A stretch of DNA of 18,828 nucleotides from Candidatus Omnitrophota bacterium (GTDB lineage Bacteria > Omnitrophota > Gorgyraeia > Zapsychrales > JANLHA01). The stretch's first letter is position 1. The number at the start of each line of letters is the position of its first letter. Of this stretch, positions 2-16,924 are shown piece after piece. The DNA is taken from NCBI GenBank assembly GCA_024653845.1, contig JANLHA010000206.1:1-18828 (forward strand), given 5' to 3'. The notes below the pieces were generated by a model. It was not told the origin of the DNA and ran no database searches. It saw only the letters and a list, made by a program, of their open reading frames with translations. The position numbers and the translations under genes were made by a program.

Positions 2-697
2 ATTAATTGTGGATGCTGGGTTAAAAATGTAGCTTTACGTGGCGAAGGTGCTGGACTTTTACGGGATATTCCTCACTTTGAAAAAATCGTTCGCTCCACG
101 GTTAATGCGACACGTTTGCCTGTGACGGTTAAAACGCGGCTTGGCTGGGATGATCAAAGCATTGTGATTGTCGATGTGGCCAAGATGGTTGAACAGACAG
201 GGGCAAAAGCCCTTACCATTCATTGCCGCACACGCACTCAAGGCTATAAAGGTGATGCCGACTGGATGTGGTTGGAAAAAGTTAAAAAAGCTGTTTCGAT
301 TCCCATTATCGGCAATGGTGATATTGAATCTCCCCAGGATGTCAAACGAATGCTGGAAACAGGTTGCGACGGGGTCATGATCGGTCGTGGCGCGATTATG
401 AACCCTTGGATTTTTCAGCAAGCGAAACATTTTTTGAAGACCGGAGATCTCTTAGCTTCTCCCAGCGCCCAGGAACGCATTGAGGTATGTTTGGAACATC
501 TAAAACTGGCTTATCAGTACAAAGATGTCAAGGGCGGAATCATTCCTTTCCGAAAATATTATGCGGGATATCTTCATGGCCTTCCCAATGCCGCCAAAGT
601 TCGCTCGGAACTGATGGCGCTGATTGATCATCAAGAGATTGTCAATCTCCTCTCTGAATACGCTCAATCTTTAGAAAATCAAACTTTGATGGTTTAA
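2..697 (+). CDS. dus: tRNA-dihydrouridine synthase, 3' part (5' end outside window)
   Basis: A flavin enzyme that reduces uridines in the tRNA D-loop to dihydrouridine with NAD(P)H. The frame is open from base 2, so the ATG at 116 is internal and the true start lies upstream of the window. The fragment opens with INCGCWVKNVALRGEGAGLL, the Dus catalytic region; the cysteine at bases 14-16 corresponds to the active-site Cys of the usual N-x-G-C-P motif, but tryptophan follows instead of proline. Next come PVTVKTRLGW, an ALTIHCRTRTQGYKG segment (substrate and phosphate side of the barrel), IPIIGNGDI and GCDGVMIGRGA (FMN phosphate binding), then a C-terminal helical part with FRKYYAGYLHGLPNAAK. 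About 231 residues are present; the FMN-binding start of the barrel is missing. The TAA overlaps the stop of the convergent giant gene, leaving no room for a dedicated terminator. Family assignment is firm; the DusA/B/C subfamily is not, though it looks DusB-like. Confidence 0.95.
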   Translation: MNCGCWVKNVALRGEGAGLLRDIPHFEKIVRSTVNATRLPVTVKTRLGWDDQSIVIVDVAKMVEQTGAKALTIHCRTRTQGYKGDADWMWLEKVKKAVSIPIIGNGDIESPQDVKRMLETGCDGVMIGRGAIMNPWIFQQAKHFLKTGDLLASPSAQERIEVCLEHLKLAYQYKDVKGGIIPFRKYYAGYLHGLPNAAKVRSELMALIDHQEIVNLLSEYAQSLENQTLMV

Positions 698-3600
698 CTT
701 TTCTGGCCGGCAACTGCAGTCTTGGAAGTTTCTTGGTTCAGTCCTAAAAATTGCGGAACATTGGGGACGGGTGTGATTTTAAGAATTACGGGAGTGAGCC
801 CGTCGAAAGGAACGGTTCCCAAGGATTGAGGATCAAATGGAAATTGATAGTCAATTTGTTCGCCTTCCGTTTTTAATTTCATTTTAGCGGGATTGAAATC
901 GATACCACCGGGCGCTTCAGTTGCAGCACCTTTCGCTCGGAGTGTTGTACGTAACATCTCTACAAGATTCTTCTTCTCTTCAGCTCGCGTCTTGCGATCT
1001 CCAGGAATAGCCCCTTTGGTTTGATCAATTAAGGATTCCAAAATTTCGGCTGCATGGTCTTCGTTATCAAAATGTCCTCGTTGAAGAAATTCATCAATAA
1101 ATTTTTGTCTTTCTCTTTCTAAATCGGTAGTTGCTTCAGCAAAGGCCCTTCGTGCTTGTTCTTCTTTTGCTTCTTTTTGGATGGCAGTCTCTCCAAGGGG
1201 AGACCAAATAGGTTGTCTTCGAAACATTTCAAGAGTTCGCAGTCTACTTATTCTTCGTCGATATTCAATCGGTACTTGGGGGACATTCCCATCAAAAATG
1301 GATGCCAGGGGATCTTCAGAAGATGGATCCAATGACTCAGAAATCTCGTTTTCAGTTGGAAGCCTGACTCCATGCAAAAGAAATGTCCGATCTTTGCGGG
1401 TGCTTAGTAAATGATCGTAAAGGGCTTGGTACCAGTTGGGAATTGTAACTTCGTAATTATGAGCTACATCAACAGGATGATCTTTATTATTTTGAGGTCT
1501 CACATTTCCGATGACTTTAACGATTTTTCCTTTTAAAATAGGAGGAACGGCTTCCAAAACGGTATCGAATATTTCTTCGGGAACAAAAATCGCTTCAATC
1601 AATTCAGGAGATAACTCTGAGAATCCCAGTGAATGCGAATGATCCCTGGCAATGCTCATATCCACCAGTTGGTCAAAGTTTTGATCCATAGCCAAAAGAA
1701 TCATCATTCCACTTTTAAGTCGCTCATTGACCACTTCTTCACCGTAATATTCCACTTCCTCTCTAAAATCAGGAAAATCACGTTCTGCAAGAATTTCAAC
1801 TGGACAGCGAGCAGGTGCTCCTCTAAGAAGAGCTAAAGTTTGCTGGTGTAAGTATTGAGGATATTCCTGGTCTGCCTGTGGACGATATTTCTCGGGTGAT
1901 TCAATTTCTTCGACAATAGTTAAAATACCTTTATCTTGATCTGGTAGGCTCTCTTTATCAGCTCCTCGTTGAGTTTCAATTCCGAGTTCTCTGCTTCTTG
2001 CCAAACTGAGCAATCCATTTTTAATAATAGAAGTTGTGGTATCCTTAATTTTTTCTGCGCGTTCATTCTCTGAAATGATTTCATCTCGTGCAATCATGAT
2101 ATCGAAATCGATTCTTGGCTTGGTGAATTTTTTAGGCCCTTGGGAAACTAAAGTTGCGATTTTACTTTCTATTATGGTAATTCTTCTTTCGTTGGGAAAT
2201 TCTTCACTTCTTAATAAGAAAACTTCTGCTCTTAACCCAGCAAGATGAAATTCATGATCCATTTTGATCAACAAATTTTGTCGTCGGAGAATTTCTTTTT
2301 CATCATTTGTAGCGTATTCGGGCCATTGATTGCCCCAGCCGTTTGCCCACGCACGCAATCGTTCTCCCATCTCCCTGGCCTCGATCTGATTGATCTTCAT
2401 AATAGGGCCTTGCCAGTTGATCCCTAACTCTGACCACGTATGACTCGTCACAACCCACGTTTCCCACTTGTCCATTTCTGTTGTTTCGTGTCTGAGGCCG
2501 GCATCATCAGCCACATAGATCGTTCGTCGTCCCCGGCCCACATGTTCGTATCCCCGGAAGGCAGGATGAGCTATGGTTAATTTTCCGTTAGCGGCTGAGG
2601 ACAAGGTGAGTCCTTTAAGGCGTATAGAAAAGTTGTTGTATTGAGGATGTCTTTTCTTTTCAGGCAATGCTTCTTGCGACAAGAGCAATTCGCGCAGCAA
2701 ATATTCTTTTTTCCCATCGGGTCTTGATTTTTCTCTTACTTTAAACCCCACAGCTCTCAGATCTGCCACAACTTTTTTTATCCCCCTTTCAATGGGTTGA
2801 TTTCTGATTTCATCGTGCCGCTCACGCGTGTATTCTCCCAAAAGTTCCATCACGAATTCCGTCGAATCCAAATTTTCTACCCCTGCGAAAGCTCGTATGA
2901 CAGCACTTTCCGGAATAGAATATTCATCCATCAAGTTCCGAAATAAGGTGATGTCAAGCCCTGAAAACTCATCCGTCTCGCCGGCTTCATGGCGCAGCTC
3001 ATGGGCGACTCCAACGATAAATAAAATCCGTGCGACCTCTGGATTGAATTTAGCTAGATCAAAAAGGATGCGCGTCAGAATGATTAAAGAATTTTCCTCG
3101 TGATCTCCAAAAGGATGACCAAAGGCATCTTTATTCAGCAAAGCCAGCAGAATTTTTTTCTGAAGAATTCTTCGTGAGTCAAGCCCCGATTCCTCCAGTG
3201 CTCTGAAAGCTCGATTCACTAAGCCTCCCACTTCTTCGGGAGAAATTCTTAGATTGGCCGCAATCTCTTGCAATTCGGCAGGAACCATGTCAAAAACCGG
3301 CTCATTCGCTTGATTTTTCACATCCACTCCGGGAATGGGCCGGCGAGTGTCTGCCCGTCGGGCAAGCTCTAATGAGGCATCCACCGTCTGCGCGCCAGAG
3401 ACTCGGAGAACTTCAAAGGCTTGGAAATCTCCGGTTTCAGATGATTGCCCAGGTGTTTTTGAAATAACGATTGGATCCTCAAATAATGCTCCACCAGTTC
3501 CTAAAAAACGAAAAACATTTAAGAATTCTTCTGGAATGTCGATATTGGCATCTTCAAGAATTTGGAAAAACCAGAGGGTTTTGGTTGCTAAACTTTCATG

Positions 3601-6600
3601 AGATTCAAAAATATGTTCTGTAAAACCGGCCTCAATAGTGGGAGTGACGCTTCCCCCTAACCCCTCGACGATTTTACGCAATCCTTGTGGGCTATTGTTT
3701 CCGATGGCCTTAAATAGTCGTACCAAACGAATACGGTTAGAAAGACTGATTTGGAATGTTACACCCGCATCAATTAAGTGTAATGTTCCATCGGAGCTAA
3801 CCATGACATTGCCTCGGTGGGGATCACCGTGATAAAATCCATCGACAAGAACTTCAATCAACAATTCTCTGGCCGTCGCATGCTCCAAATCCACCCGATC
3901 AAGACCCAGTTCAGACACAGCTGTTTCATTGGTTAGCCCCACTCCCTCAACGGCTTCTTCTAAGATAAGCGCATTATTGACCGTCTCCAAAACTTCGGGA
4001 ACAGCAAAACGATAAGTTCGTGAAGACGGTGATACGACTTTTCGTAACGATCGCGATAAAAGCCGGGCCATCGCACGTTTGGTGAGAGAACGATTCATCA
4101 CGTTTTCTCGCAATTGCCGCGTATTGCTAGCTTCAGATTCAAAATTCAGTTCTTCTCGGATGGTTTGTTCAATTTGTCTTAAAAGATTCTTCGGGATAAT
4201 AACGCCTTCAGCAGTAAGTGTTGGTCGTACATCTTCGAGAATTTCCCGGAGAAAGCTAAGATCTTCCTCAACTTCCTTTTCAATCTCCGGGCGTTTGATT
4301 TTGGCCACAACAACGCGTCCTCCTTTGAGACGTGCTTTGTAGACCACCTTGATGGAAGCACTTCCCAAGGGCTGCTCGATCGCCTCAAATTTGTCTTCAA
4401 AGTTTCCATAAAGTTTTTCCATGAGATCAAAAACAATGCCTTTAGGCAATCGCTGGGCTTTATCTTGCACTTTGGCTAATTCTTCACGCATGACTTTTTT
4501 CACGGAACTTGAGCGTGATAAAACTTGGGCTAATTTTTTCCCGGCCAATCCTAAAGATTCCAAAAAGTAACGCACGGCCATCGCCTCTTTTCTTTCTTCA
4601 TCGACTTTCCCTTCATCGGCCTCTTGGCGATATTGATTTAGCGACCAGATCAAAGATAAAAGTATTTTTTCTCGTCGGAGGGGATTAGCTTTAGCAAAAG
4701 CGGCATCATAAACTTTTTTGTAAAGGGTTTGCTGATGACTTGCAGGGACAATGGCTCCAAATAATTGATCCAGAAATTGGCTTGTAGCAGCTGCATCACT
4801 AAAAACACCCTTCTCTCCATAGAGGAATGGCTCCAAAAATTCTTGTTGAGCCGAGCGTCCTGCTTGAGAGTAATATCGGCTGGCACTGCCTAAAAAAATC
4901 TCTCGATAACTGTCAACAGTGACATGGAAGCTATATTCGAAATGCATGAGAAAAAATGGTTTATCATCGCTGATTCCTAGTAACCATAATAAGGCTTCAG
5001 TTTTTTCTTGAGGCGTACGATTTTTGATATAGCTTCGAAAATGATCACGGCCAAAGATGATGCGTGCCTCTTCTTTCTGATACATTTGTGCACCTTTTTC
5101 AAAAGGATCGACAAAGAGAGCTTCTATCTTTCTGTATTCTTCGGTGGTCGTCGCTAAAAACTGTGCGGTTTCTTGTAGGATGTCATCTCTTAATGGAGAA
5201 GCATCGGGAAACAATCTTTGGATTTGAGTCAAGGCACTGTCTAGATTTTGAAAAAGTTCCGGAGCGTGATCTCGATGTTGATCGAGCGCCCGTAAAGCCA
5301 AATTTTCACGAATGGAAGGATTCGTAAATAAAGGTAACGTTTGTTCGAACTCTTCTGTTGATGTTTGTGTAAAGTTAGACTCAACTGCCAATTTTAGCCA
5401 ACGGTCACGCACGGGTGACCGTTGAGGGTAAAAACGCATAATGATTGTACGTTTTTCTTGAAGAGAAGTGGTGACAGAACCGACAACTGTTTGTAATCGT
5501 TCGTCAGTCAGTCGGCCGAGAAAGACATGGAGCTGAGCAAGGTTTCCTCCTAAAGGAGCGTAAAGAGCTTCTTCATATCCTGCCACTTCAGTCGCATGCT
5601 GAACTCGTACGATGGCATTATCAAGTTGCACTGGTCCCACTTTTCGTCCCGTTAGATAGGCGCCTATGATTTTACGGTTAACTTCCGTGATTAATTCATC
5701 CTCAATGATGAAGGGAAAAATTTTTGCTAAGGCATCCAGGGCTTGGGTTATCTGCCCTGGGTCTAAAGAACGCAGGCGTTCTTGGATTATCGATAGATCG
5801 AAAATTTCTGTTGGTTCCAAAGTCAGGTCAAGATCTCTTTGGAGCACTCTTGCTACAAAAATTTGGTAGAGAATGAAGTTTCGTACCACCGTCGGCGGCA
5901 AACTCTCAGCTACTTGTGCAATGGCTCTATCGTAATCGGTGGACAAATGAGGGATGAACTGAAAGAGATTCAAAAATTTTGCAAGAGAGAAATCTTTTCC
6001 ATTTAAGCGTGTGTCTCGAACAGGACGCTGATCAAAGGCATGAGTGACACGTTCTCCTTCTCTAAATAGTCCACTTGAAGCAATCTCACCTTCAAATGCT
6101 TTCCAGGTAGAAGAACTTATTGTTTTTGTATCATCTTCATTCAATCGTGATGTGTAACCAATCGAGGCAAAAAATCGTTGTAAATAAATAGGAGCTACAT
6201 ACTGTCCAAATGCAATTTCGGATTCTTCAGCATTGGCATGGTCTTTAGCCAGGCGTGCTCCTAGTCGAGGACGGATGGTTTCAAGAAATTTAAAAATGAT
6301 TTCAAAATCTTCGAGTTTCACATAAGGAGTATGTATTTCAGGATTGATTTCATTCCAGCGAGCCCGAATGTGCTGCCTGTCGTCACGACTTAAGGCATTA
6401 AATCGATCTCCGATGTCTTCCGGGTCATCAACGGGCTCTTGAGGCGTGGCGGCCTTAATCAAGGAAATGATTTCAGGATCTTCAAGTATACTGCCTGGTC
6501 TTGTCCGTTTTTTGGCTTCTCCAAAAATAAAGCTTCTCGTACTCTCTGAATTAGGTACACCTCCTAAAACAAAGACATAGAATAAAGCTTTGATTTGCGG

Positions 6601-9600
6601 ATTCAAGCCATTTAACAAAGGAAGCATCGAAGGATCAATCGCTTGCTGGAGTGCTTCATCAAAGGCATCGTTTTGAAAAGCTTTCTGATCTCTGGCTTGG
6701 AGTCCTAATTCGAAAAAGATATCAGCATCTTCTGTGGCTTTTAACTCTCGAAATCTCCCAAGAATATTTTTATGAAAAGAAACAAGTTGATCGGCTGGAA
6801 GATCCCGAGGCAATTGTTTTAGAAAAGTTTTAAAAATTTCCGGCCATTTTTTTACCAGGGAATCATTAGATAAAAGCGCTTGGAGATATTCTGCTGGGAT
6901 AGCAAAGTCTAAAACCGTGCCTTTGATCTCTTGCTGTTGCGGCCTTCCCCCGAACGCGTCCAACGCATCTGCAAAGCTAGGTGGTGGTTGTAAGAATTGT
7001 TTAATGTCTTCTTTCAGAAATTCTTCACGTAATTCGGAAATTTCTCCTGTTGTGTTGATGGCCCATTCGCGGACCGCAGCACGTGTTTCAGGAGAAGCAT
7101 TTTGCATGAATTTTCTCCACGAGGCCACAGCGCCTCGGGGATCATATCCACCAACCGCATAGCCATTGCCAAAACTTTCATGAATTTTCAAATATTGACG
7201 GACCTGCTCCGGCGACACTTGACGGGCAAAACTTTCTGAGGTAAGGATTTGCGAAATCACTCGGGCGATATTGCCTTGGATATTCCTTTCATCTGCAGCC
7301 AGTTTTCTTGTGTGAATTTCTTTCTCTAGATAAACCATGGCTTGAAGAAGACGTTGAGTTTGCTCGAAATTGAGCTGCCCGTCTCTGATTCGGGTTGAAA
7401 GAATACCGGTAGCCACGTAAAAGAAACCATCCAGGTATCGTTGCACTCGACCCTTAGGAAGTTGTCGACTTGGATCCATACTGATGACTGCAGAACTAGT
7501 GAGGTAGGTATAAACATGTTCCGCCCATTGATGAGATTCATCGAGAGATAAAGGATCCACATTGAGAGCCAGGCCAAAAATGCGTGGCACTCCCAGTTCC
7601 ATGATTTGAATCAGCACAGTGCTATCTTCATTCCTTAGGAGTCCCTGGCACCATTGGATAACTTCCACAAACATTTCCCGTCGTTCCACCATGGAGGCAA
7701 GTTCTTGTTTAAAATATCGATATAAAACCTGTTTGGCCCGATCATCACCTGCGAGCTCAAACATTTTTCTATCAAAGGCTTCTTTGATTTCAGCCAAACG
7801 TGCTTTTTCTGCACCGGGTAAAGCCTCGGATCCATAAAGAAAAGCAAACTGAGCTTCTTCAATGCGTGTGGCTTCTTGAATAAGAGTTCTAACTTCATCC
7901 GCAGTTTTGGCATGAACTACTCTTTCTTGAAAATCGCGATAGCGAGTGCGTTGCACCGCTTGTGCCTGAGCCTCTGGAGAAAACGGCTGCACTTCATTGA
8001 GGTAAGAATTCCAATGATAATCCGTGACCAATTTAGAAAGCTGACGAAAACGTTCTTCCACTTCCGGATGAGATCCCCAAACGGAATCTTTCATTTTTCG
8101 AGCTTGCATCCATTCTGCTAAGATTTGGAAAAGTTTTGGGGCCTCTTTGACATTAAATCCGGCTTGGTCCATGAGGCGCAAGCCTCCCAAATCTGCATGG
8201 TATTCTCGAGCACGATCTCCTAAATGGCTATCAATGATTCCTTTATGTTCATGTCCGTGATCGATATCATCTCGTCCTTGCTGAATATGAGTGATTTCGT
8301 GACCAAGCACAAAAGCCAGAGCATCTTGGGACAACTGTCCTTTATCAGCAAACATTTTAAGAAGTCCTAAGGATACAACAATGACATTGTAGTTTCTTAA
8401 AACGTAGGCGTTTGGAGAAATGGTATCTTCAAGATAAAATCGATATTCATTGGGATTGAGGACTTGAGTCTCAAGTAATTTTCGAACAACACCATCAACT
8501 TCATTATAGATGTCATGAAATTGTTCGAAATCTTCCATGCCCGGGGCGATCATTCGATTTACCGCATGATTGATATCAATCGCAATTTCTTTTTGTTCAG
8601 AGTTTGTGTGGTATTTCGGATCGGTGGGAATGTTAACGCGTGGAACACCGTCGCTGACCATATTGGCCGCCCCATCTCGAGCAATGGCGATATCAAAATT
8701 TTTTCGGGCCTCTTTAAGAGTCCTAGGGCCTTGGCCCTCGAGGCGGGTAGCTTCAGTACGTGATTCATTAGTGTTTTCCGCACGCAACCCCGCGATATGG
8801 AATTTGTGGTCTGCGGAGATTAATAGATTTTGTCTTCGAACTATTTCTACTGGATCACTGGTGAGATATTCTGTCCACTGACCTTCCGAACCAGCTTGTC
8901 CATTGGCCCAGGCTCTTAATCGCTCTCCCATTTCGCCGGCAACGATTTGGGCTGGAGTCATTCGCGGTCCTTCAGAATGAGTCACGGCCCAATTTTCCCA
9001 AGCCTCGGCTTCAGCTTCTTCGTGCTTAACACCTTCAGCATCAGCAGCGTATACAACTCTTCGCCCCCGTCCGACATGTTCTTGTCCTTTAAACGCCGGA
9101 TGAACAATGATCAATCGGCCATTTTTTCTTAACGTCAGCTCAAATCTTCTACCGTCAACCTCATCAGTAATTTTAACTTCATCACCAATTCTTTGTCCTC
9201 TTGCCTCCACCAGCCCCCGAATCTGAAATTCTCCATCGATCTCCTCAACAGTATACCCTGCTGCCCGTAAATCCCGAATAAACCCAGCATTCTCATCTCT
9301 GATAGCTTCTCGAACAGGTTCATTCTTTTCTTCATCGTGTTTTTCTCTTGTATATTCAAGCGCTACCGATGCTTGCCTGACGACTCCTGTTGTTGCAGCG
9401 TCAACTTCTGCGGGAGTGGCCTGGGTTACTTGTCTCGGCCTCAAAGCACTGCCCCAAACTCCACCAGAAAAATATTTTCGGGGAATCATTTGTTGGGTCG
9501 CAGGATCTACCTCTTCTTTAATATAGTTGTAAACACCCTTTTTAAATGCCTCAAGGTACTGTTGGTAAATTTTTTCTTTGACCTCGGGATCGTCCGCATC

Positions 9601-10503
9601 GACTCCCGCAACCTTATTTTGATCTGTATAAACTTTATTGAGCAGGCTTTCTTTCAAATTTTGCTTGTACCAAACAGCCAGAATCATCGAATGAAAAATT
9701 TGCCGCAGGAGAGTAAAATTCTTCCCTTCGTTGACTTCCTTTTCAATTTCCGGAATGATGACTTCTCGAACGATTTGACTCATCATTTCTCGATTATTTG
9801 ATTTTTCTAGAGATGAAGGGGTCTTACTCTGGCGCTGAGTTAAATAATCTTGTTCGGTCATTACCTTTAAATGACTTTTTAAAATGAAGGCTATCCCATC
9901 TTTAACATAAACTGTGGCTTCATCAGGTACAATCCAGACTTTACTAAACGTATTGACCGGGACTTGAGTTGTTCCTAATTTTTCCTGGGCTTGTTTATAA
10001 ATCCGATCCCAGAATTTTTTACCTAAATCTTTTTCAGGATACATTAACGAAGCTGTGATTTGTTTCAATAAATAATCTTGGGCGAGCATGTCTCGGCCCA
10101 TTTCGGTGATTCCAAATTCTGTTGGTATAATCCGGTCAGGTTCATTCGGGGAAAGGTTGACCCAGAGATCTTCTTGCGGAGTTGTTAATGTGGCTAAAAA
10201 GTAGCGGATGAGTTTATTGGCTTCTTGACTGAAGGCTTCATCTTCTAATTTGGATTCACCCGTATCAATAAGGAAATCAAAACGTAAGGGATTCTCAGGA
10301 AATATTTTTAAACCCTTTAACACGGCGGGATGATGAATTTCACTGACCCCCACCATGCTCCCAACGGGTGGCAAGGAAGGTGTGTTTGAGGGTATTGTTT
10401 GAGCTCGAAGATTCCATGGAAACACCGTCTCTATCAAAAAGGCCAAAAGGATCAGGCCCACGATCGGGCGTTTTAAACAAAGATTTTTAGAAAATGAGGT
10501 CAT
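694..10503 (-). CDS. giant exported multidomain protein: M48-type protease, UbiB-type kinase, duplicated module (3269 aa)
   Basis: One uninterrupted frame of 3269 residues. Visible in order: signal peptide or anchor (1-35); conserved N-terminal block (36-350); module copy 1 (383-611); M48-type metalloprotease (about 640-820, HEITH at 735-739); helical region of unknown type (about 820-1970); UbiB/ABC1 atypical kinase (about 1975-2345); HELRH (2501-2505); module copy 2 (2557-2808); unrecognised tail; conserved C-terminal block (3199-3254). The start ATG has an AAGGAT Shine-Dalgarno sequence 5 nt upstream and leads straight into the hydrophobic segment, so I trust it. No gene follows it as an operon partner; dus converges on its 3' end. 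Function is unknown. The signal places protease and kinase-like domains outside the cytoplasm or tethered to the membrane, which is odd for an ATP-dependent fold. The end blocks resemble, from memory, those of other very large Omnitrophota proteins. The domain calls are secure; any biological role is guesswork. Confidence 0.93.
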   Translation of the reverse strand: MTSFSKNLCLKRPIVGLILLAFLIETVFPWNLRAQTIPSNTPSLPPVGSMVGVSEIHHPAVLKGLKIFPENPLRFDFLIDTGESKLEDEAFSQEANKLIRYFLATLTTPQEDLWVNLSPNEPDRIIPTEFGITEMGRDMLAQDYLLKQITASLMYPEKDLGKKFWDRIYKQAQEKLGTTQVPVNTFSKVWIVPDEATVYVKDGIAFILKSHLKVMTEQDYLTQRQSKTPSSLEKSNNREMMSQIVREVIIPEIEKEVNEGKNFTLLRQIFHSMILAVWYKQNLKESLLNKVYTDQNKVAGVDADDPEVKEKIYQQYLEAFKKGVYNYIKEEVDPATQQMIPRKYFSGGVWGSALRPRQVTQATPAEVDAATTGVVRQASVALEYTREKHDEEKNEPVREAIRDENAGFIRDLRAAGYTVEEIDGEFQIRGLVEARGQRIGDEVKITDEVDGRRFELTLRKNGRLIIVHPAFKGQEHVGRGRRVVYAADAEGVKHEEAEAEAWENWAVTHSEGPRMTPAQIVAGEMGERLRAWANGQAGSEGQWTEYLTSDPVEIVRRQNLLISADHKFHIAGLRAENTNESRTEATRLEGQGPRTLKEARKNFDIAIARDGAANMVSDGVPRVNIPTDPKYHTNSEQKEIAIDINHAVNRMIAPGMEDFEQFHDIYNEVDGVVRKLLETQVLNPNEYRFYLEDTISPNAYVLRNYNVIVVSLGLLKMFADKGQLSQDALAFVLGHEITHIQQGRDDIDHGHEHKGIIDSHLGDRAREYHADLGGLRLMDQAGFNVKEAPKLFQILAEWMQARKMKDSVWGSHPEVEERFRQLSKLVTDYHWNSYLNEVQPFSPEAQAQAVQRTRYRDFQERVVHAKTADEVRTLIQEATRIEEAQFAFLYGSEALPGAEKARLAEIKEAFDRKMFELAGDDRAKQVLYRYFKQELASMVERREMFVEVIQWCQGLLRNEDSTVLIQIMELGVPRIFGLALNVDPLSLDESHQWAEHVYTYLTSSAVISMDPSRQLPKGRVQRYLDGFFYVATGILSTRIRDGQLNFEQTQRLLQAMVYLEKEIHTRKLAADERNIQGNIARVISQILTSESFARQVSPEQVRQYLKIHESFGNGYAVGGYDPRGAVASWRKFMQNASPETRAAVREWAINTTGEISELREEFLKEDIKQFLQPPPSFADALDAFGGRPQQQEIKGTVLDFAIPAEYLQALLSNDSLVKKWPEIFKTFLKQLPRDLPADQLVSFHKNILGRFRELKATEDADIFFELGLQARDQKAFQNDAFDEALQQAIDPSMLPLLNGLNPQIKALFYVFVLGGVPNSESTRSFIFGEAKKRTRPGSILEDPEIISLIKAATPQEPVDDPEDIGDRFNALSRDDRQHIRARWNEINPEIHTPYVKLEDFEIIFKFLETIRPRLGARLAKDHANAEESEIAFGQYVAPIYLQRFFASIGYTSRLNEDDTKTISSSTWKAFEGEIASSGLFREGERVTHAFDQRPVRDTRLNGKDFSLAKFLNLFQFIPHLSTDYDRAIAQVAESLPPTVVRNFILYQIFVARVLQRDLDLTLEPTEIFDLSIIQERLRSLDPGQITQALDALAKIFPFIIEDELITEVNRKIIGAYLTGRKVGPVQLDNAIVRVQHATEVAGYEEALYAPLGGNLAQLHVFLGRLTDERLQTVVGSVTTSLQEKRTIIMRFYPQRSPVRDRWLKLAVESNFTQTSTEEFEQTLPLFTNPSIRENLALRALDQHRDHAPELFQNLDSALTQIQRLFPDASPLRDDILQETAQFLATTTEEYRKIEALFVDPFEKGAQMYQKEEARIIFGRDHFRSYIKNRTPQEKTEALLWLLGISDDKPFFLMHFEYSFHVTVDSYREIFLGSASRYYSQAGRSAQQEFLEPFLYGEKGVFSDAAATSQFLDQLFGAIVPASHQQTLYKKVYDAAFAKANPLRREKILLSLIWSLNQYRQEADEGKVDEERKEAMAVRYFLESLGLAGKKLAQVLSRSSSVKKVMREELAKVQDKAQRLPKGIVFDLMEKLYGNFEDKFEAIEQPLGSASIKVVYKARLKGGRVVVAKIKRPEIEKEVEEDLSFLREILEDVRPTLTAEGVIIPKNLLRQIEQTIREELNFESEASNTRQLRENVMNRSLTKRAMARLLSRSLRKVVSPSSRTYRFAVPEVLETVNNALILEEAVEGVGLTNETAVSELGLDRVDLEHATARELLIEVLVDGFYHGDPHRGNVMVSSDGTLHLIDAGVTFQISLSNRIRLVRLFKAIGNNSPQGLRKIVEGLGGSVTPTIEAGFTEHIFESHESLATKTLWFFQILEDANIDIPEEFLNVFRFLGTGGALFEDPIVISKTPGQSSETGDFQAFEVLRVSGAQTVDASLELARRADTRRPIPGVDVKNQANEPVFDMVPAELQEIAANLRISPEEVGGLVNRAFRALEESGLDSRRILQKKILLALLNKDAFGHPFGDHEENSLIILTRILFDLAKFNPEVARILFIVGVAHELRHEAGETDEFSGLDITLFRNLMDEYSIPESAVIRAFAGVENLDSTEFVMELLGEYTRERHDEIRNQPIERGIKKVVADLRAVGFKVREKSRPDGKKEYLLRELLLSQEALPEKKRHPQYNNFSIRLKGLTLSSAANGKLTIAHPAFRGYEHVGRGRRTIYVADDAGLRHETTEMDKWETWVVTSHTWSELGINWQGPIMKINQIEAREMGERLRAWANGWGNQWPEYATNDEKEILRRQNLLIKMDHEFHLAGLRAEVFLLRSEEFPNERRITIIESKIATLVSQGPKKFTKPRIDFDIMIARDEIISENERAEKIKDTTTSIIKNGLLSLARSRELGIETQRGADKESLPDQDKGILTIVEEIESPEKYRPQADQEYPQYLHQQTLALLRGAPARCPVEILAERDFPDFREEVEYYGEEVVNERLKSGMMILLAMDQNFDQLVDMSIARDHSHSLGFSELSPELIEAIFVPEEIFDTVLEAVPPILKGKIVKVIGNVRPQNNKDHPVDVAHNYEVTIPNWYQALYDHLLSTRKDRTFLLHGVRLPTENEISESLDPSSEDPLASIFDGNVPQVPIEYRRRISRLRTLEMFRRQPIWSPLGETAIQKEAKEEQARRAFAEATTDLERERQKFIDEFLQRGHFDNEDHAAEILESLIDQTKGAIPGDRKTRAEEKKNLVEMLRTTLRAKGAATEAPGGIDFNPAKMKLKTEGEQIDYQFPFDPQSLGTVPFDGLTPVILKITPVPNVPQFLGLNQETSKTAVAGQKS
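742..909 (-). other. conserved C-terminal block of the giant protein (residues 3199-3254)
   Basis: The block starts GGIDFNPAKMKLKTEGE, continues through a YQFPFDPQSL and DGLTPVILKITPV segment, and ends PQFLG, about 15 residues before the stop. I recall the same style of ending (GGIDxN ... DP..L ... GLTPVI ... FLG) on many large exported Omnitrophota proteins. It is predicted to be short beta strands and has no catalytic motif. A C-terminal sorting or surface-attachment signal would explain its conservation, but this is inference. Confidence 0.5.
2080..2835 (-). repeat. duplicated protein module, copy 2 (residues 2557-2808)
   Basis: Second copy of the module, about 1950 residues after copy 1. 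It keeps EYTRERHDE, DLRAVGFKV, HPAFRGYEHVGRGRR, the His-Glu pair (LRHE), W-E-T-W-V-VT, EMGERLRAWANG, RRQNLLIKMDHEFHLAGLRAE and FDIMIARD. It is about 20 residues longer than copy 1, with insertions before the HPAF segment and around the AGLRAE segment. It follows the second HExxH motif by about 50 residues, whereas copy 1 precedes an HExxH domain. Confidence 0.85.
2989..3003 (-). other. second HExxH motif, HELRH (residues 2501-2505)
   Basis: The motif lies in the helix ARILFIVGVAHELRHEAGE, a hydrophobic run before HExxH as in gluzincin active-site helices. Acidic residues follow (ETDEFSGLD), but no clear ExxAD-like third-ligand segment was found before module copy 2. It may be a separate or degenerate metalloprotease domain, or a chance motif. 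I cannot assign a family. Confidence 0.4.
3469..4581 (-). other. UbiB/ABC1 (AarF/COQ8)-type atypical kinase domain (residues ~1975-2345)
   Basis: Family motifs appear in order: KLAQVLS at 1990 (the KxGQ position, Ala for Gly) followed by EELAKVQDKAQRLP; LGSASIKVVYKARL (nucleotide loop); VVVAKIKRPEI with Lys2068 as the ATP lysine; EELNFESEASN, where the family ExD reads Glu-Leu-Asn (2118-2120); YHGDPHRGN with catalytic Asp2227; and LIDAGV with Asp2245 as metal ligand (usually DFG). The C-terminal lobe ends near FRFLGTGGALFEDP. The core ATP and Mg residues are retained, while the two UbiB-specific signature motifs are altered. UbiB proteins are normally cytoplasmic or matrix-facing and assist quinone biosynthesis or lipid handling. 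Confidence 0.85.
8044..8586 (-). other. M48-type zinc metalloprotease domain (residues ~640-820)
   Basis: The region carries the M48 layout: a lead-in with NAYVLRNYNVIVVSLGLLKMF (compare the NAFAxPGGxIxVxxGLL text of the family), then DALAFVLGHEITHIQQG with zinc ligands His735 and His739 and catalytic Glu736. REYHAD follows, where Glu767 is the expected third zinc ligand and the ExxAD signature is intact, then GSHPEVEERFRQL around His812. A short His-rich loop (DIDHGHEHKG) lies between the HExxH and the glutamate. All catalytic residues are present, so it looks active. Unlike HtpX it has no flanking transmembrane helices; it resembles the soluble periplasmic BepA/LoiP side of the family. Confidence 0.85.
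8671..9357 (-). repeat. duplicated protein module, copy 1 (residues 383-611)
   Basis: First of two diverged copies of a ~230-residue module in the giant protein. Shared landmarks with copy 2: EYTRE(K/R)HDE at the start; DLRA(A/V)G(Y/F)(T/K)V; HPAF(K/R)G(Q/Y)EHVGRGRR followed by Y-x-AD and a conserved His-Glu pair (VKHE here); W-E-x-W-x-VT; EMGERLRAWANG; RRQNLLI-x2-DH-x-FH-x-AGLRAE; and an end at FDI-x-IARD. The copies differ through most intervening positions, so this is an old protein-level duplication and not a recent DNA repeat. Copy 1 sits directly before the M48-type protease. Confidence 0.85.
9454..10398 (-). other. conserved N-terminal block of the giant protein (residues ~36-350)
   Basis: Contains landmarks such as PENPLRFDFLIDTGES, DLWVNLSPNEPDRIIP, EMGRDMLAQDYLLKQITASL, LGKKFWDRIYKQAQEKLGTT, NTFSKVWIVPDEATVYV, IREVIIPEIEKEVNEGKNF-like text, and an end at PRKYFSGG. 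I recall closely similar blocks at the start of numerous huge predicted proteins in Omnitrophota genomes, always just after a signal sequence. No enzyme motif is apparent. A role in export, folding or surface placement would fit its constant position, but that is inference. Confidence 0.6.
10399..10503 (-). other. N-terminal signal peptide or membrane anchor of the giant protein
   Basis: Residues 1-35. A basic start (Lys6, Lys11, Arg12) is followed by a hydrophobic run at about 13-24 (PIVGLILLAFLI), then ETVFPWNLRAQ. Cleavage after Ala34 is possible, but Leu at -3 is not ideal, so it could remain as an uncleaved N-terminal anchor with the rest of the chain on the far side of the inner membrane. 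This supports Sec-dependent export of the whole polypeptide. No second clear transmembrane stretch was seen in the remaining 3230 residues. Confidence 0.75.
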
Positions 10504-13847: not shown

Positions 13848-15140
13848 ATGGATTCTATGGAACCCATTTGTACGACAACAGAAGATCAAGATCGTTTGAT
13901 TGAAACGATCAAAAATAAACAGGACCAGGTTTATGCTTGGCTGGAAGGACATGAAAAAAAGATCCTTCCTCCACTTTATTCGTCGATTGATCTGCGTGAT
14001 GCTGGATTTAAGATGGCGGTTGTTGACACGAATCTTTTCCCCGCGGGATTCAATAATCTTTGCGAACATGGACTTTTGGATTCGGTAGCTTTTTTTCGTA
14101 GCGCAATTTTTAAACGAGTGCCAGATTGCAAAAAGATTTTGATTTTGGCCGAGGAGCATACGCGCAATACATGGTATTTGGAGAACGTGCGAATTTTGCA
14201 GCAAGTCATTGAGCAGGCGGGGTTTGATGTCAAAATCGCTACATTTTTAACCATTCAGCCAGCCTTTTGTCAGGATGTCAATTTTATCGAGCTCATGACG
14301 GCGACCAACCATCCCGTGAGAATTCATTGTTTTAAGAGAATCTTACAAATGATTGAACAAGGACAGGAAAAAATCGATTTGATCATCATGAACAATGACT
14401 TGATCACAGGAATTCCTGAAAATTTGAGAAACTCTAAAATCCCGATTTATCCATCGATCCATGCAGGATGGCATTCTCGACTCAAGTCTCATCATTTTAA
14501 CCATACCGGCGAATTGATGGAGGAATTTGCCAAAATCATTGGGCAGGATCCTTGGATTTTTTCAACACTCTATGCGGTTGTGGATCAAGTGGATATCAAC
14601 CGTCCAGAAGATCGTTCACGTATTCAAGATATCGCCACTACTCTTTTGAAACGAATCGAAGAGAAATATCGTGAACATGGAATTAAAGAAAAACCATATT
14701 TGGTGATCAAGGCTGACGCTGGAACGTATGGCATGGGTGTCAGTACGATTGAAAATCCCAAAGACTTGCTTGAGATGAATCGTAAAACTCGCAACAAGCT
14801 TTATAAAGGGAAAAGCGCCAAAATCATTGAACGGTATCTGATTCAGGAAGGAATTCCAACGATCCACGAAGTTGATCAGCATCCTAGCGAAGTTTGCATT
14901 TATCAAATTGAGACCAATTTGATTGGTGGGTTTTATCGCACTCATCCTGGGAAAACGGATCGCGAAATTCTCAACTCGCAAGGGATGGAATTTAAAAAGA
15001 TGTGCCCGCATTTGAAAAAATATGGAGATTGTGGGGTACATCATGACCTGAATATTTTTGACGTTTACCGGATTCTTGCCCGGATTGCAGCCATTGCTAC
15101 ACGATTGGAAATCAATGAGCTGGAGGCAAAGTCATCATGA
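13848..15140 (+). CDS. gshA: glutamate-cysteine ligase, proteobacterial GshA type (Pfam GshA, PF08886)
   Basis: Catalyses ATP-dependent joining of L-glutamate to L-cysteine, the first and committed step of glutathione synthesis, in the cytoplasm. The 430 residues carry the landmarks of the GshA family that is unrelated in sequence to E. coli GshA: DAGFKMAVVDTNLFPAGFNN (Asp60 within), EEHTRNTWYLENV, IPIYPSIHAGWHSRLKSHHF, VIKADAGTYGMGV (from about 286, ATP-grasp-like) and EVCIYQIETNLIGGFYRTH. It heads a five-gene operon and overlaps gshB by the ATGA arrangement, so the two enzymes are probably made in step. A strong GGAGGA site precedes the start. This subtype is known chiefly from Proteobacteria, so its presence here may reflect transfer if the host is Omnitrophota. 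Confidence 0.93.
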   Translation: MDSMEPICTTTEDQDRLIETIKNKQDQVYAWLEGHEKKILPPLYSSIDLRDAGFKMAVVDTNLFPAGFNNLCEHGLLDSVAFFRSAIFKRVPDCKKILILAEEHTRNTWYLENVRILQQVIEQAGFDVKIATFLTIQPAFCQDVNFIELMTATNHPVRIHCFKRILQMIEQGQEKIDLIIMNNDLITGIPENLRNSKIPIYPSIHAGWHSRLKSHHFNHTGELMEEFAKIIGQDPWIFSTLYAVVDQVDINRPEDRSRIQDIATTLLKRIEEKYREHGIKEKPYLVIKADAGTYGMGVSTIENPKDLLEMNRKTRNKLYKGKSAKIIERYLIQEGIPTIHEVDQHPSEVCIYQIETNLIGGFYRTHPGKTDREILNSQGMEFKKMCPHLKKYGDCGVHHDLNIFDVYRILARIAAIATRLEINELEAKSS

Positions 15141-16087
15141 ACTTCATCTTTCTAATGGATCCTTTAGAATCGGTGATGATGGAGCATGACACCTCCTTCA
15201 TTTTCATGTTGGAATCACACCGTCGAGGGTATAAAGTCTTTTTCTTGCCAGAAGGCGGCATCACTCTGTTGAATGGGCAGCCCATTTTTTTAGTAACAGA
15301 GGTCATTCCGCAACAAGTCAAAGATAAGCCGTTTTTGCTTAAGGGGCAAAAACGATTAGAGGAGAAAGATGTCGATGCCATTTTCATTCGCACCGATCCT
15401 CCATTTGATCACCGTTATTTGATGCAGACATGGCTTTTGGACCGCGTCTCTCCTCGCATTCCAATTATCAATCGACCTTCCGGGATGCGTACAGTGAATG
15501 AAAAAATTTGGGCGACACAATTTGCCTCTATTGTTCCACCAACAATGGTTAGTTGCAGTCGGGCTGAACTTTTGAAATTTATTCAGGAGCACGATGAAAT
15601 TGTGGCCAAACCCACAGATGGTTTTGGTGGACAATCTGTGTTTCGTATCCATCGAGGAGATTTAAACACCAATGTGATTTTAGAGAGTTTGACACACCTT
15701 TATACGCGTGATATCATCTTGCAAAAATTTATTCCTCAGGCGGAAAAAGGAGACAAGCGGATCCTCCTCTTGAATGGTGAACCGTTAGGAGCAATTTCAC
15801 GGGTTCATGCGCCAGGCGATCATCGTAACAATATTTTTGCCGGTGGCAAGGCGGTTGCGACGGAAATTACGTCGAGGGATCGTGAAATCATTTCGATTTT
15901 AAAACCTAAGTTGTTGGAGTTTGGCTTGTATTTTGTAGGGATTGATATCATTGGAGATTACTTGATTGAAGTGAACGTAACGTCCCCGACCTGTGTGCAA
16001 GAAATGAATCACTTGTATCGGGTACAGTTAGAGAAGCAGGTCATTAATTTTGTAGAGAAGTTAATCAAAGATTCTCGGAGGATATGA
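15137..16087 (+). CDS. gshB: glutathione synthetase
   Basis: An ATP-grasp ligase that adds glycine to gamma-glutamylcysteine to make glutathione. At 316 residues it has the usual length. Seen in order: FLMDPLESVMMEHDTSFIFMLE (N-terminal domain), FIRTDPPFDHRY with Asp87, NRPSGMRTVNEKIWA, the glycine-rich loop AKPTDGFGGQS starting near Lys158, GDKRILLLNGEPLGA, NNIFAGGKA, VGIDIIGDYLIEVNVTSPT with metal- and ATP-binding Glu278 and Asn280. All substrate-loop and Mg-binding residues expected from E. coli GshB seem present. The ATG overlaps the gshA stop (ATGA), with a GGAGG site 10 nt upstream inside gshA. The next gene begins 1 bp after its stop. Confidence 0.95.
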   Translation: MNFIFLMDPLESVMMEHDTSFIFMLESHRRGYKVFFLPEGGITLLNGQPIFLVTEVIPQQVKDKPFLLKGQKRLEEKDVDAIFIRTDPPFDHRYLMQTWLLDRVSPRIPIINRPSGMRTVNEKIWATQFASIVPPTMVSCSRAELLKFIQEHDEIVAKPTDGFGGQSVFRIHRGDLNTNVILESLTHLYTRDIILQKFIPQAEKGDKRILLLNGEPLGAISRVHAPGDHRNNIFAGGKAVATEITSRDREIISILKPKLLEFGLYFVGIDIIGDYLIEVNVTSPTCVQEMNHLYRVQLEKQVINFVEKLIKDSRRI

Positions 16088-16088
16088 A

Positions 16089-16334
16089 ATGCAGGATTTG
16101 AAGTTGTACTACATGCCAACATGTCCTTATTGTAAAAAAGTTTTGACTTATATGGAACTGAATAAAATTCAAATTCCTCTAAAAGATACCTTAGAGAACT
16201 CGGCCCATCGCAAAGAACTTTTAGAGATCGGCGGCAAAACGCAAGTCCCTTGCCTAGTGATCGACGGCAAAGCTTTATATGAATCCGATGACATCATCAA
16301 ATGGCTTAAAGACAATTGGCGAAGGACATGGTGA
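16089..16334 (+). CDS. dithiol glutaredoxin (CPYC)
   Basis: 81 residues with a thioredoxin fold and active site TCPYC (Cys12, Cys15) near the N-terminus, cis-proline Pro54 in TQVPCLVI, and the glutathione-binding end ALYESDDIIKWL. Such proteins reduce disulfides and glutathionylated proteins using glutathione. The form is close to the short GST_N_3/GrxC-like glutaredoxins. A GGAGG site lies 7 nt upstream, inside the end of gshB, and the gap to gshB is 1 bp, so it belongs to the operon. An extra Cys55 directly after the cis-proline is less usual. Exact substrate unknown. Confidence 0.9.
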   Translation: MQDLKLYYMPTCPYCKKVLTYMELNKIQIPLKDTLENSAHRKELLEIGGKTQVPCLVIDGKALYESDDIIKWLKDNWRRTW

Positions 16335-16340
16335 GCTCCT

Positions 16341-16601
16341 ATGGAACTTGATGAAATCAAACAAGTGATTCAATTGAGCATCCCTGATGCGGAAGTTTAT
16401 GTGTTAGATCCCATGAATGATGGACAACATTTGCAGGCAATCGTCATTAGCTCGACCTTCGAAGGCATGTCATTGATCAAGCAGCATCAAATGGTCATGC
16501 GCCCTCTCAAGGAGGCTTTGGCATCGGCAGTGCATGCGTTAGGACTCAAAACTTTTACCCCAGAGAAATGGAAAGAATCAAAAGCACAATTTTTATCGTG
16601 A
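16341..16601 (+). CDS. BolA/IbaG-type protein (second of two)
   Basis: 86 residues. [26 protein letters not shown] and [14 protein letters not shown] are the BolA2/IbaG (YrbA) signature; His30 and the near-invariant His65 are the likely cluster-ligand candidates. These proteins form a [2Fe-2S] heterodimer with CGFS glutaredoxins, and the CGFS gene follows immediately, 11 bp downstream. That adjacency is the classic BolA-Grx4 pairing. It has diverged strongly from the BolA protein encoded on the minus strand 2.6 kb away, so the two probably do different jobs. The start follows a weak GGTGAG site and lies 6 bp after the glutaredoxin stop. Confidence 0.93.
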
Positions 16602-16605
16602 GGAG
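16601..16605 (+). promoter_or_regulatory. ribosome binding site of grxD
   Basis: AGGAG, 7 nt before the chosen ATG and overlapping the last base of the preceding stop codon. It decides the start in favour of 16613. Confidence 0.7.
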
Positions 16606-16612
16606 AATACTT

Positions 16613-16924
16613 ATGTCAAATGTTCATGAACGCATTGAAAATGATATCAAAAATAATAAAGTGATGATTTATATCAAAGGCACTCCGGATGCTCCGATGT
16701 GTGGATTTTCGGCTCAGGCGGTCAGCATTTTGAAACAATACAACGTCCCTTTTCATTCTTTCAATATTTTAGAAGATGATGAGCTTCGACAAGCCATCAA
16801 AGAATATTCCGATTGGCCTACTTTCCCTCAACTTTATGTTAAAGGTGAGCTCGTGGGTGGATGCGACATCATGATGGAACTGCATAAGACGGGTGAGTTG
16901 AAGAAAATTCTTGGTGTCGCTTAA
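16613..16924 (+). CDS. grxD: monothiol glutaredoxin, CGFS type (Grx4/GrxD)
   Basis: 103 residues. The cluster-binding cysteine is Cys30 in PMCGFS; Lys22 (YIKGTP), the cis-proline Pro72 (WPTFPQLY) and GGCD at 82-85 form the glutathione site. CGFS glutaredoxins carry a glutathione-ligated [2Fe-2S] cluster and pass it on with BolA partners; they have little oxidoreductase activity. I chose the ATG at 16613 because it has an AGGAG site 7 nt upstream and begins at the normal N-terminus (MSNVHERIEN). The frame is open further upstream to an ATG inside the previous gene, but those 15 residues are unlike the family. It ends the operon, 1 bp from the convergent mrp stop. Confidence 0.95.
   Translation: MSNVHERIENDIKNNKVMIYIKGTPDAPMCGFSAQAVSILKQYNVPFHSFNILEDDELRQAIKEYSDWPTFPQLYVKGELVGGCDIMMELHKTGELKKILGVA

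Follow-up and report, generated by a model that had tools for sequence, protein, structure and literature searches.

Why should a metalloprotease and an ATP-dependent kinase fold share one giant polypeptide that seems bound for export? The question is raised by P0001, a 3269-residue protein encoded in the window, the whole 18,828-nucleotide stretch of Candidatus Omnitrophota DNA analyzed here (contig JANLHA010000206.1 of assembly GCA_024653845.1). The accessible parts of a survey of this phylum describe its members as uncultured and, by inference, often host-dependent (PMC10066038). A sequence-only reading had described P0001 as a single frame with an N-terminal signal or anchor, an M48-type protease and a UbiB-type kinase. 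Its account of the domains, their residues and the signal stands in the main, and it was incomplete in that two conserved ends of the protein went unnoticed. P0001 is best understood as a cargo-bearing member of a protein family nearly confined to Omnitrophota.

The protease-kinase protein and its relatives

The P0001 gene runs unbroken over positions 694..10503, as had been claimed, and lies on the minus strand, which had been left unstated, with an ATG start and a stop codon at 694-696. Residues 1-35 (10399..10503, minus) form a signal peptide or N-terminal anchor with a hydrophobic core at about residues 14-32 followed by LRA/QT, in our assessment a probable export signal. This core is the only strongly hydrophobic stretch, no 19-residue window beyond residue 60 exceeding 1.6. 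The N-termini of paralogs resemble this region by eye and are positively charged ahead of the hydrophobic core, and a simple rule finds an A-x-A type site after the core in 110 of the 139 related proteins introduced below; a strongly hydrophobic window past residue 60 in 10 of the 139 counts against the export reading.

The domain search that had been proposed for P0001 recovers both enzymes. Pfam Peptidase_M48 (PF01435) matches in two stretches, the best at residues 669-742, with 53 bits against a cut-off of 20.3 (E 4.8e-14), and the domain extends from residue 669 to about 830, the end being approximate (8014..8499, minus). Counted on the alignment, HEITH at residues 735-739 (8287-8301, minus), E767 (8203-8205, minus) and D771 bear out the intact metalloprotease motif. 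ABC1 (PF03109) matches residues 2011-2275 (3679..4473, minus; E 5.1e-38), its 131 bits far exceeding the cut-off of 22.9, and the alignment places its motifs at K2068, H2225-G-D2227...N2232 and D2245. The ATP lysine, catalytic Asp and metal Asp described earlier are present, and a kinase-like fold is predicted from the Pfam match. UbiB proper is not supported by the NCBIfam equivalog score (154.4 of the 487.55 bits of the cut-off) or by KLAQ at residues 1990-1993, the position of the UbiB-defining KxGQ motif, and the correct label is ABC1/AarF superfamily. P0001 also falls far under the cut-offs of the NCBIfam BepA, HtpX and LoiP models, and because of these sub-threshold scores we regard its two domains as superfamily members and not as UbiB, BepA, HtpX or LoiP. 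The NCBIfam MABP-1 model likewise matches below its cut-off, and the solved relatives of P0001 by sequence are ABC1-type chains, COQ8A/ADCK3 among these.

With peptidase family M48 (HtpX, BepA, LoiP), P0001 has in common the HExxH motif, the downstream ExxxD and a Pfam score above the cut-off, but its domain sits in a 3269-residue signal-bearing chain without a further hydrophobic helix. With the ABC1/AarF/UbiB kinases (UbiB, COQ8A/ADCK3) it shares the ATP lysine, HGDxHxxN and IDxG, and it differs from them in having KLAQ for KxGQ and GSAS as the Ala-rich loop, and in that its kinase is signal-bearing and fused to a protease.

Besides these two domains, the Pfam scan of P0001 returned only a sub-threshold APH match. 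The conserved region between the enzymes (residues 831-1975; 4579..8013, minus) has no Pfam name in that scan and is 34-39% identical in the eight nearer relatives described below. A module of about 240 residues is present twice (copy 1, residues 380-620, 8644..9366; copy 2, residues 2526-2809, 2077..2928; both minus), the copies being 47% identical over 211 aligned columns (E 2e-55). It likewise has no Pfam name, and is found more weakly in L013, L026, L040 and P0035. A second HExxH-type motif, HELRH (residues 2501-2505; 2989..3003, minus), lies outside the M48 match and is without family assignment.

The combination of M48 and UbiB-like domains, thought to be without a described counterpart, is not singular. 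The search for other two-domain proteins suggested by the sequence-only reading found ten on other contigs (P0002, P0003 and P0021-P0028), all with M48 followed by ABC1, and three of them carry an AarF/UbiB label from their source. HExxH, ExxxD, the HGD/HAD...N loop and ID[A/L/W]G are kept in all 11 proteins, with identities to P0001 over residues 640-2345, taken by segment, of 34-49% in eight relatives and 22-31% in P0003 and P0028. Eight of the ten also have both conserved ends, P0026 being without the N-terminal one and P0027 without the C-terminal one. In the window's genome (87% complete) P0001 is the sole ABC1 match. Across 54 genomes of the window's order 22 match ABC1, 19 above the cut-off; stand-alone proteins of 562-580 residues give the four strongest matches, and the others above the cut-off are mostly inside very long frames. 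Plastoglobules contain an M48 peptidase along with ABC1 kinases, and the pair in P0001 may recall that association, an analogy we offer as a lead only.

Conserved ends around unrelated cargo

Behind its signal-like segment P0001 carries a region (N-module, residues 36-348; 9460..10398, minus) that ends in PRKYFSGG, and its last residues form a second element (C-tag, residues 3199-3269; 697..909, minus) that starts with GGIDFN and has no Pfam match. The N-module recurs at 23 further places in the window's genome with 49-62% identity and with other, unrelated sequence downstream; at least four of these places are cut short, and a 24th (C298) holds the last part only. An alignment of 20 N-modules contains 57 invariant columns up to the closing PRKYFSGG. 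All four complete N-module frames of this genome end in the GGID element, as do three 3' fragments.

In a set of 139 proteins (P0001-P0139) the N-module profile, built independently of them, matches 131, the C-tag profile, built partly from them, matches 138, and 130 have both. A search with the P0002 C-terminal region, which takes in part of the P0002 ABC1 domain, was the first to list 119 of the proteins (among the best 120 of its 154 matches), and 111 of these 119 have the N-module. The C-tag is present in 19 of the 19 remaining proteins, which come from a whole-length search and whose alignments, one excepted, cover 9-12% of the query. At 80 loci from named genomes we found 99 N-module frames, 67 of them complete, and the C-tag terminates 61 of the 67; the other six comprise three that hold runs of N and three that directly precede a C-tag-only frame. 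N-module and C-tag are conserved ends around unrelated cargo.

At L013 (contig C319 of G000) the 3' end of one two-ended gene is followed by two complete ones arranged in tandem. Many G000 contigs terminate inside an N-module gene, and the N-module repeats probably break this assembly. A short member at 9950-12499 of L049 has cargo that looks phosphotransferase- or kinase-like by eye.

A scan of genome contigs with the N-module gave at least 488 places, and the titles of the 80 places kept name Omnitrophota, Omnitrophica or Aceula in 77 cases, “bacterium” in two and “Planctomycetales” in one. N-module matches occur in 89 of 285 sampled Omnitrophota genomes and, for the window's order with its family included, in 34 of 36 among the genomes listed, a list ranked by kinship from which 176 non-matching genomes are absent. 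The two-ended family is nearly confined to Omnitrophota. In 12 genomes of the same class outside the order, the C-tag profile matches two of 20 N-module frames, which counts against a general pairing. Several of the 20 are cut or masked and most keep Y-x-SGG, and the frames of L167, L168 and L169 and one of L177 end by eye in a shortened GGID or GID. A complete frame of 736 residues without a C-tag (L166, 2674-4881, in G248) closes with hydrophobic helices and is perhaps an older, membrane-bound form of the N-module protein.

The AlphaFold model of the N-module (P0001 residues 30-352) has a pLDDT of 84 and a pTM of 0.83. In a 673-residue model of the 681-residue L095, pLDDT is mostly >70 in the N-module, 71-94 by block in the C-tag and mostly <55 in the cargo, values that in themselves hint that the C-tag may dock onto the N-module. 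Fold searches of PDB and BFVD returned nothing at E 0.001 or better.

Intracellular-type cargo and its cysteines

Precomputed Pfam accessions exist for about 79 of the 139, and the named cargo domains of the family are of intracellular type. The accessions are those of what we take to be histidine-kinase ATPase, SNF2 helicase, MutS, DnaJ, AAA, methyl- and acetyltransferases, GGDEF, FHA, response regulator, PPDK, 6-phosphogluconolactonase, glutamate dehydrogenase, malate synthase, and HEAT and WD40 repeats; we recognized neither a glycoside hydrolase nor an adhesin among them. By Pfam scan P0004 contains phosphoglucomutase and P0009 malate synthase, and in two proteins a single chain bears at least four glycolytic enzymes, namely P0010 (PPDK, GAPDH C-domain, TIM, PGK and enolase, with aldolase and the GAPDH N-domain below cut-off) and L202 (two GAPDH, PGK, enolase, and aldolase just over its cut-off). 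Most named cargo is non-glycolytic. The signal-bearing frame at 3838-12144 of L203 joins two GAPDH domains to an acyl-CoA dehydrogenase that is complete.

Enolase occurs both embedded and as an ordinary gene in G115, G298 and G128, and ordinary GAPDH genes are present in G115 and G289. A search of G289 gave no ordinary enolase; its sole enolase match lies inside the two-ended L204 (1315-6030) and may serve the cytoplasm if the assembly is complete there. The window's genome has 11 other giant frames that were scanned, of which two have domains above cut-off (methyltransferase, AAA), one a sub-threshold match and eight no Pfam match at all, the last a point against the enzyme-carrier reading.

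The cargo is extremely poor in cysteine, with a median of 0.06% in 68 locus frames versus 1.06% in 385 neighbor frames (p 7e-34, relatedness ignored) and of 0.10% across 130 proteins. The neighbors divide into 38 signal-like soluble frames (0.67%), 266 signal-less frames (1.13%) and 81 multi-helix frames (1.08%), and the family is lower than even the signal-like ones (p 6e-14, relatedness ignored). P0001 itself has two Cys in the 3229 residues after residue 40. Such depletion fits export of the family, in keeping with the earlier suggestion that an ATP-dependent fold is exported, a puzzle that proves to be family-wide and not P0001's alone.

Four cysteines follow the signal in P0010, one in GAPDH SCTTN, one in the PEP-utilizing GFCGND and two adjacent in TIM, presumably all functional positions; L202 and L203 have three post-signal Cys each, two of them SCTTN cysteines. 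All five embedded GAPDH domains examined keep the catalytic Cys and have lost the second Cys of SCTTNC, whereas both are present in all four cytosolic GAPDH examined; many further cytosolic copies and a weak embedded match in G121 lie outside this comparison. L204 has four cargo Cys, all within its enolase, which counts against a purge. The ABC1 and enolase families give little contrast because the cytosolic copies examined are mostly Cys-poor themselves.

A possible export route and its alternatives

That P0001 belongs to an Omnitrophota family of exported proteins carrying enzymes between two conserved ends is a reading we hold at close to even chances. Judged from sequence, the cargo may consist of functional enzymes that are unfolded as they exit the cytoplasm. 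We envisage that a Sec-type signal would bring the P0001 chain out of the cytoplasm and that the N-module and C-tag, whose pairing is observed in this order, would serve as a sorting device, perhaps folding together so that the cargo forms a loop from YFSGG to GGID, as the structure models hint. The chain would then pass the outer membrane unfolded, and the observed purge of Cys except at catalytic need may be due to this passage; type V passengers are described as Cys-poor in the accessible parts of two sources (PMC5422565, PMC8151025). In the least certain step of the scheme, M48 and ABC1 would act where ATP is available, most likely in or at a partner or prey cell, and action of P0001 in another cell is possible.

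More tentatively, we propose an undescribed Omnitrophota export system in which paired sorting modules would carry working cytosolic-type enzymes, among them much of glycolysis on a single chain and the protease-kinase, to a partner or prey cell or to a private compartment. If so, giant chains with a mark at either end would take intact enzymes that depend on ATP, NAD and SAM out of the Omnitrophota cytoplasm, and N-module and C-tag would be sorting signals of a new, paired kind. The puzzle of giant genes in this phylum would be partly explained, and the dealings of these cells with partners or prey would become easier to approach.

The accessible text of the phylum survey reports ORFs over 20 kb with few domains and a possible part in adhesion or predation (Seymour et al. 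2023, PMC10066038). Like P0001 these are very long, of unclear function and from the same phylum, but the survey counts ORFs over 20 kb and that of P0001 measures 9.8 kb. The same text mentions neither paired end modules nor cytosolic-type enzyme cargo, and paired ends are not described in the accessible portions of the literature on Omnitrophota giant proteins. Type V or two-partner secretion and polymorphic toxins also combine a conserved trafficking part with variable cargo in large, Cys-poor proteins, according to the available part of one source (PMC5422565). They have one trafficking domain, in contrast to the two conserved ends of the family, whose named cargo consists of metabolic and signaling enzymes; the Pfam scan of P0001 gave no TPS domain and no barrel. 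The C-terminal domain of type IX secretion resembles the C-tag in being short, conserved and attached to the C-terminus of diverse exported cargo. The C-tag differs in having no Pfam match and in its pairing with an N-module about 310 residues long. The T9SS translocon SprA was found in 0 of 285 genomes by a search whose control was silent too.

Alternatively, the family may be exported and remain periplasmic or on the surface of the producing cell, its enzyme folds there serving to bind, scaffold, moonlight or use extracellular nucleotides. We consider this unlikely, while giving it serious weight: the signal-like N-terminus and Cys depletion would suit it, and glycolytic enzymes on the surface are known in other bacteria. 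However, catalytic residues are kept even in relatives of 22-31% identity, and the catalytic Cys in the five GAPDH domains examined, so that a mere binding role is unlikely since binding would not need them. Giant Omnitrophota ORFs have also been proposed as adhesins or coats in the accessible part of the survey (PMC10066038), which agrees with a surface location.

Sorting by the two ends into an intracellular membrane-bounded compartment with ATP and NAD, a glycosome-like organelle, would account for several glycolytic enzymes per chain (P0010, L202) and for an ordinary enolase beside the embedded one in G115, G298 and G128 (none was found in G289), but most named cargo is not glycolytic and the accessible literature on Omnitrophota mentions no such compartment, making this improbable. 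Quite improbable, too, is an N-terminal anchor that escapes cleavage and keeps P0001 in the cytoplasm or facing it, with another cause for the low Cys. The cofactor dependence of the cargo, the single hydrophobic segment and the location of the sole enolase found in G289 in a two-ended protein point that way, whereas the A-x-A type site in 110 of 139 proteins and the positive N-termini argue for an N-in orientation and cleavage, and the Cys depletion goes beyond that of both signal-less and signal-like neighbors. Fusion of separate genes by an assembly or gene-calling error, which the sequence-only reading had itself named as a danger, has some plausibility from the repeated N-modules that break contigs in this assembly; we give it a negligible chance, because P0001 is one open frame without internal stop and its domain order is identical in ten proteins from other contigs, eight of them with both ends.

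Elsewhere in the window, a glutathione gene set lies on the plus strand at 13848-16924, comprising a glutamate-cysteine ligase (TIGR02049) and a glutathione synthase, with a Grx4-type glutaredoxin close by.
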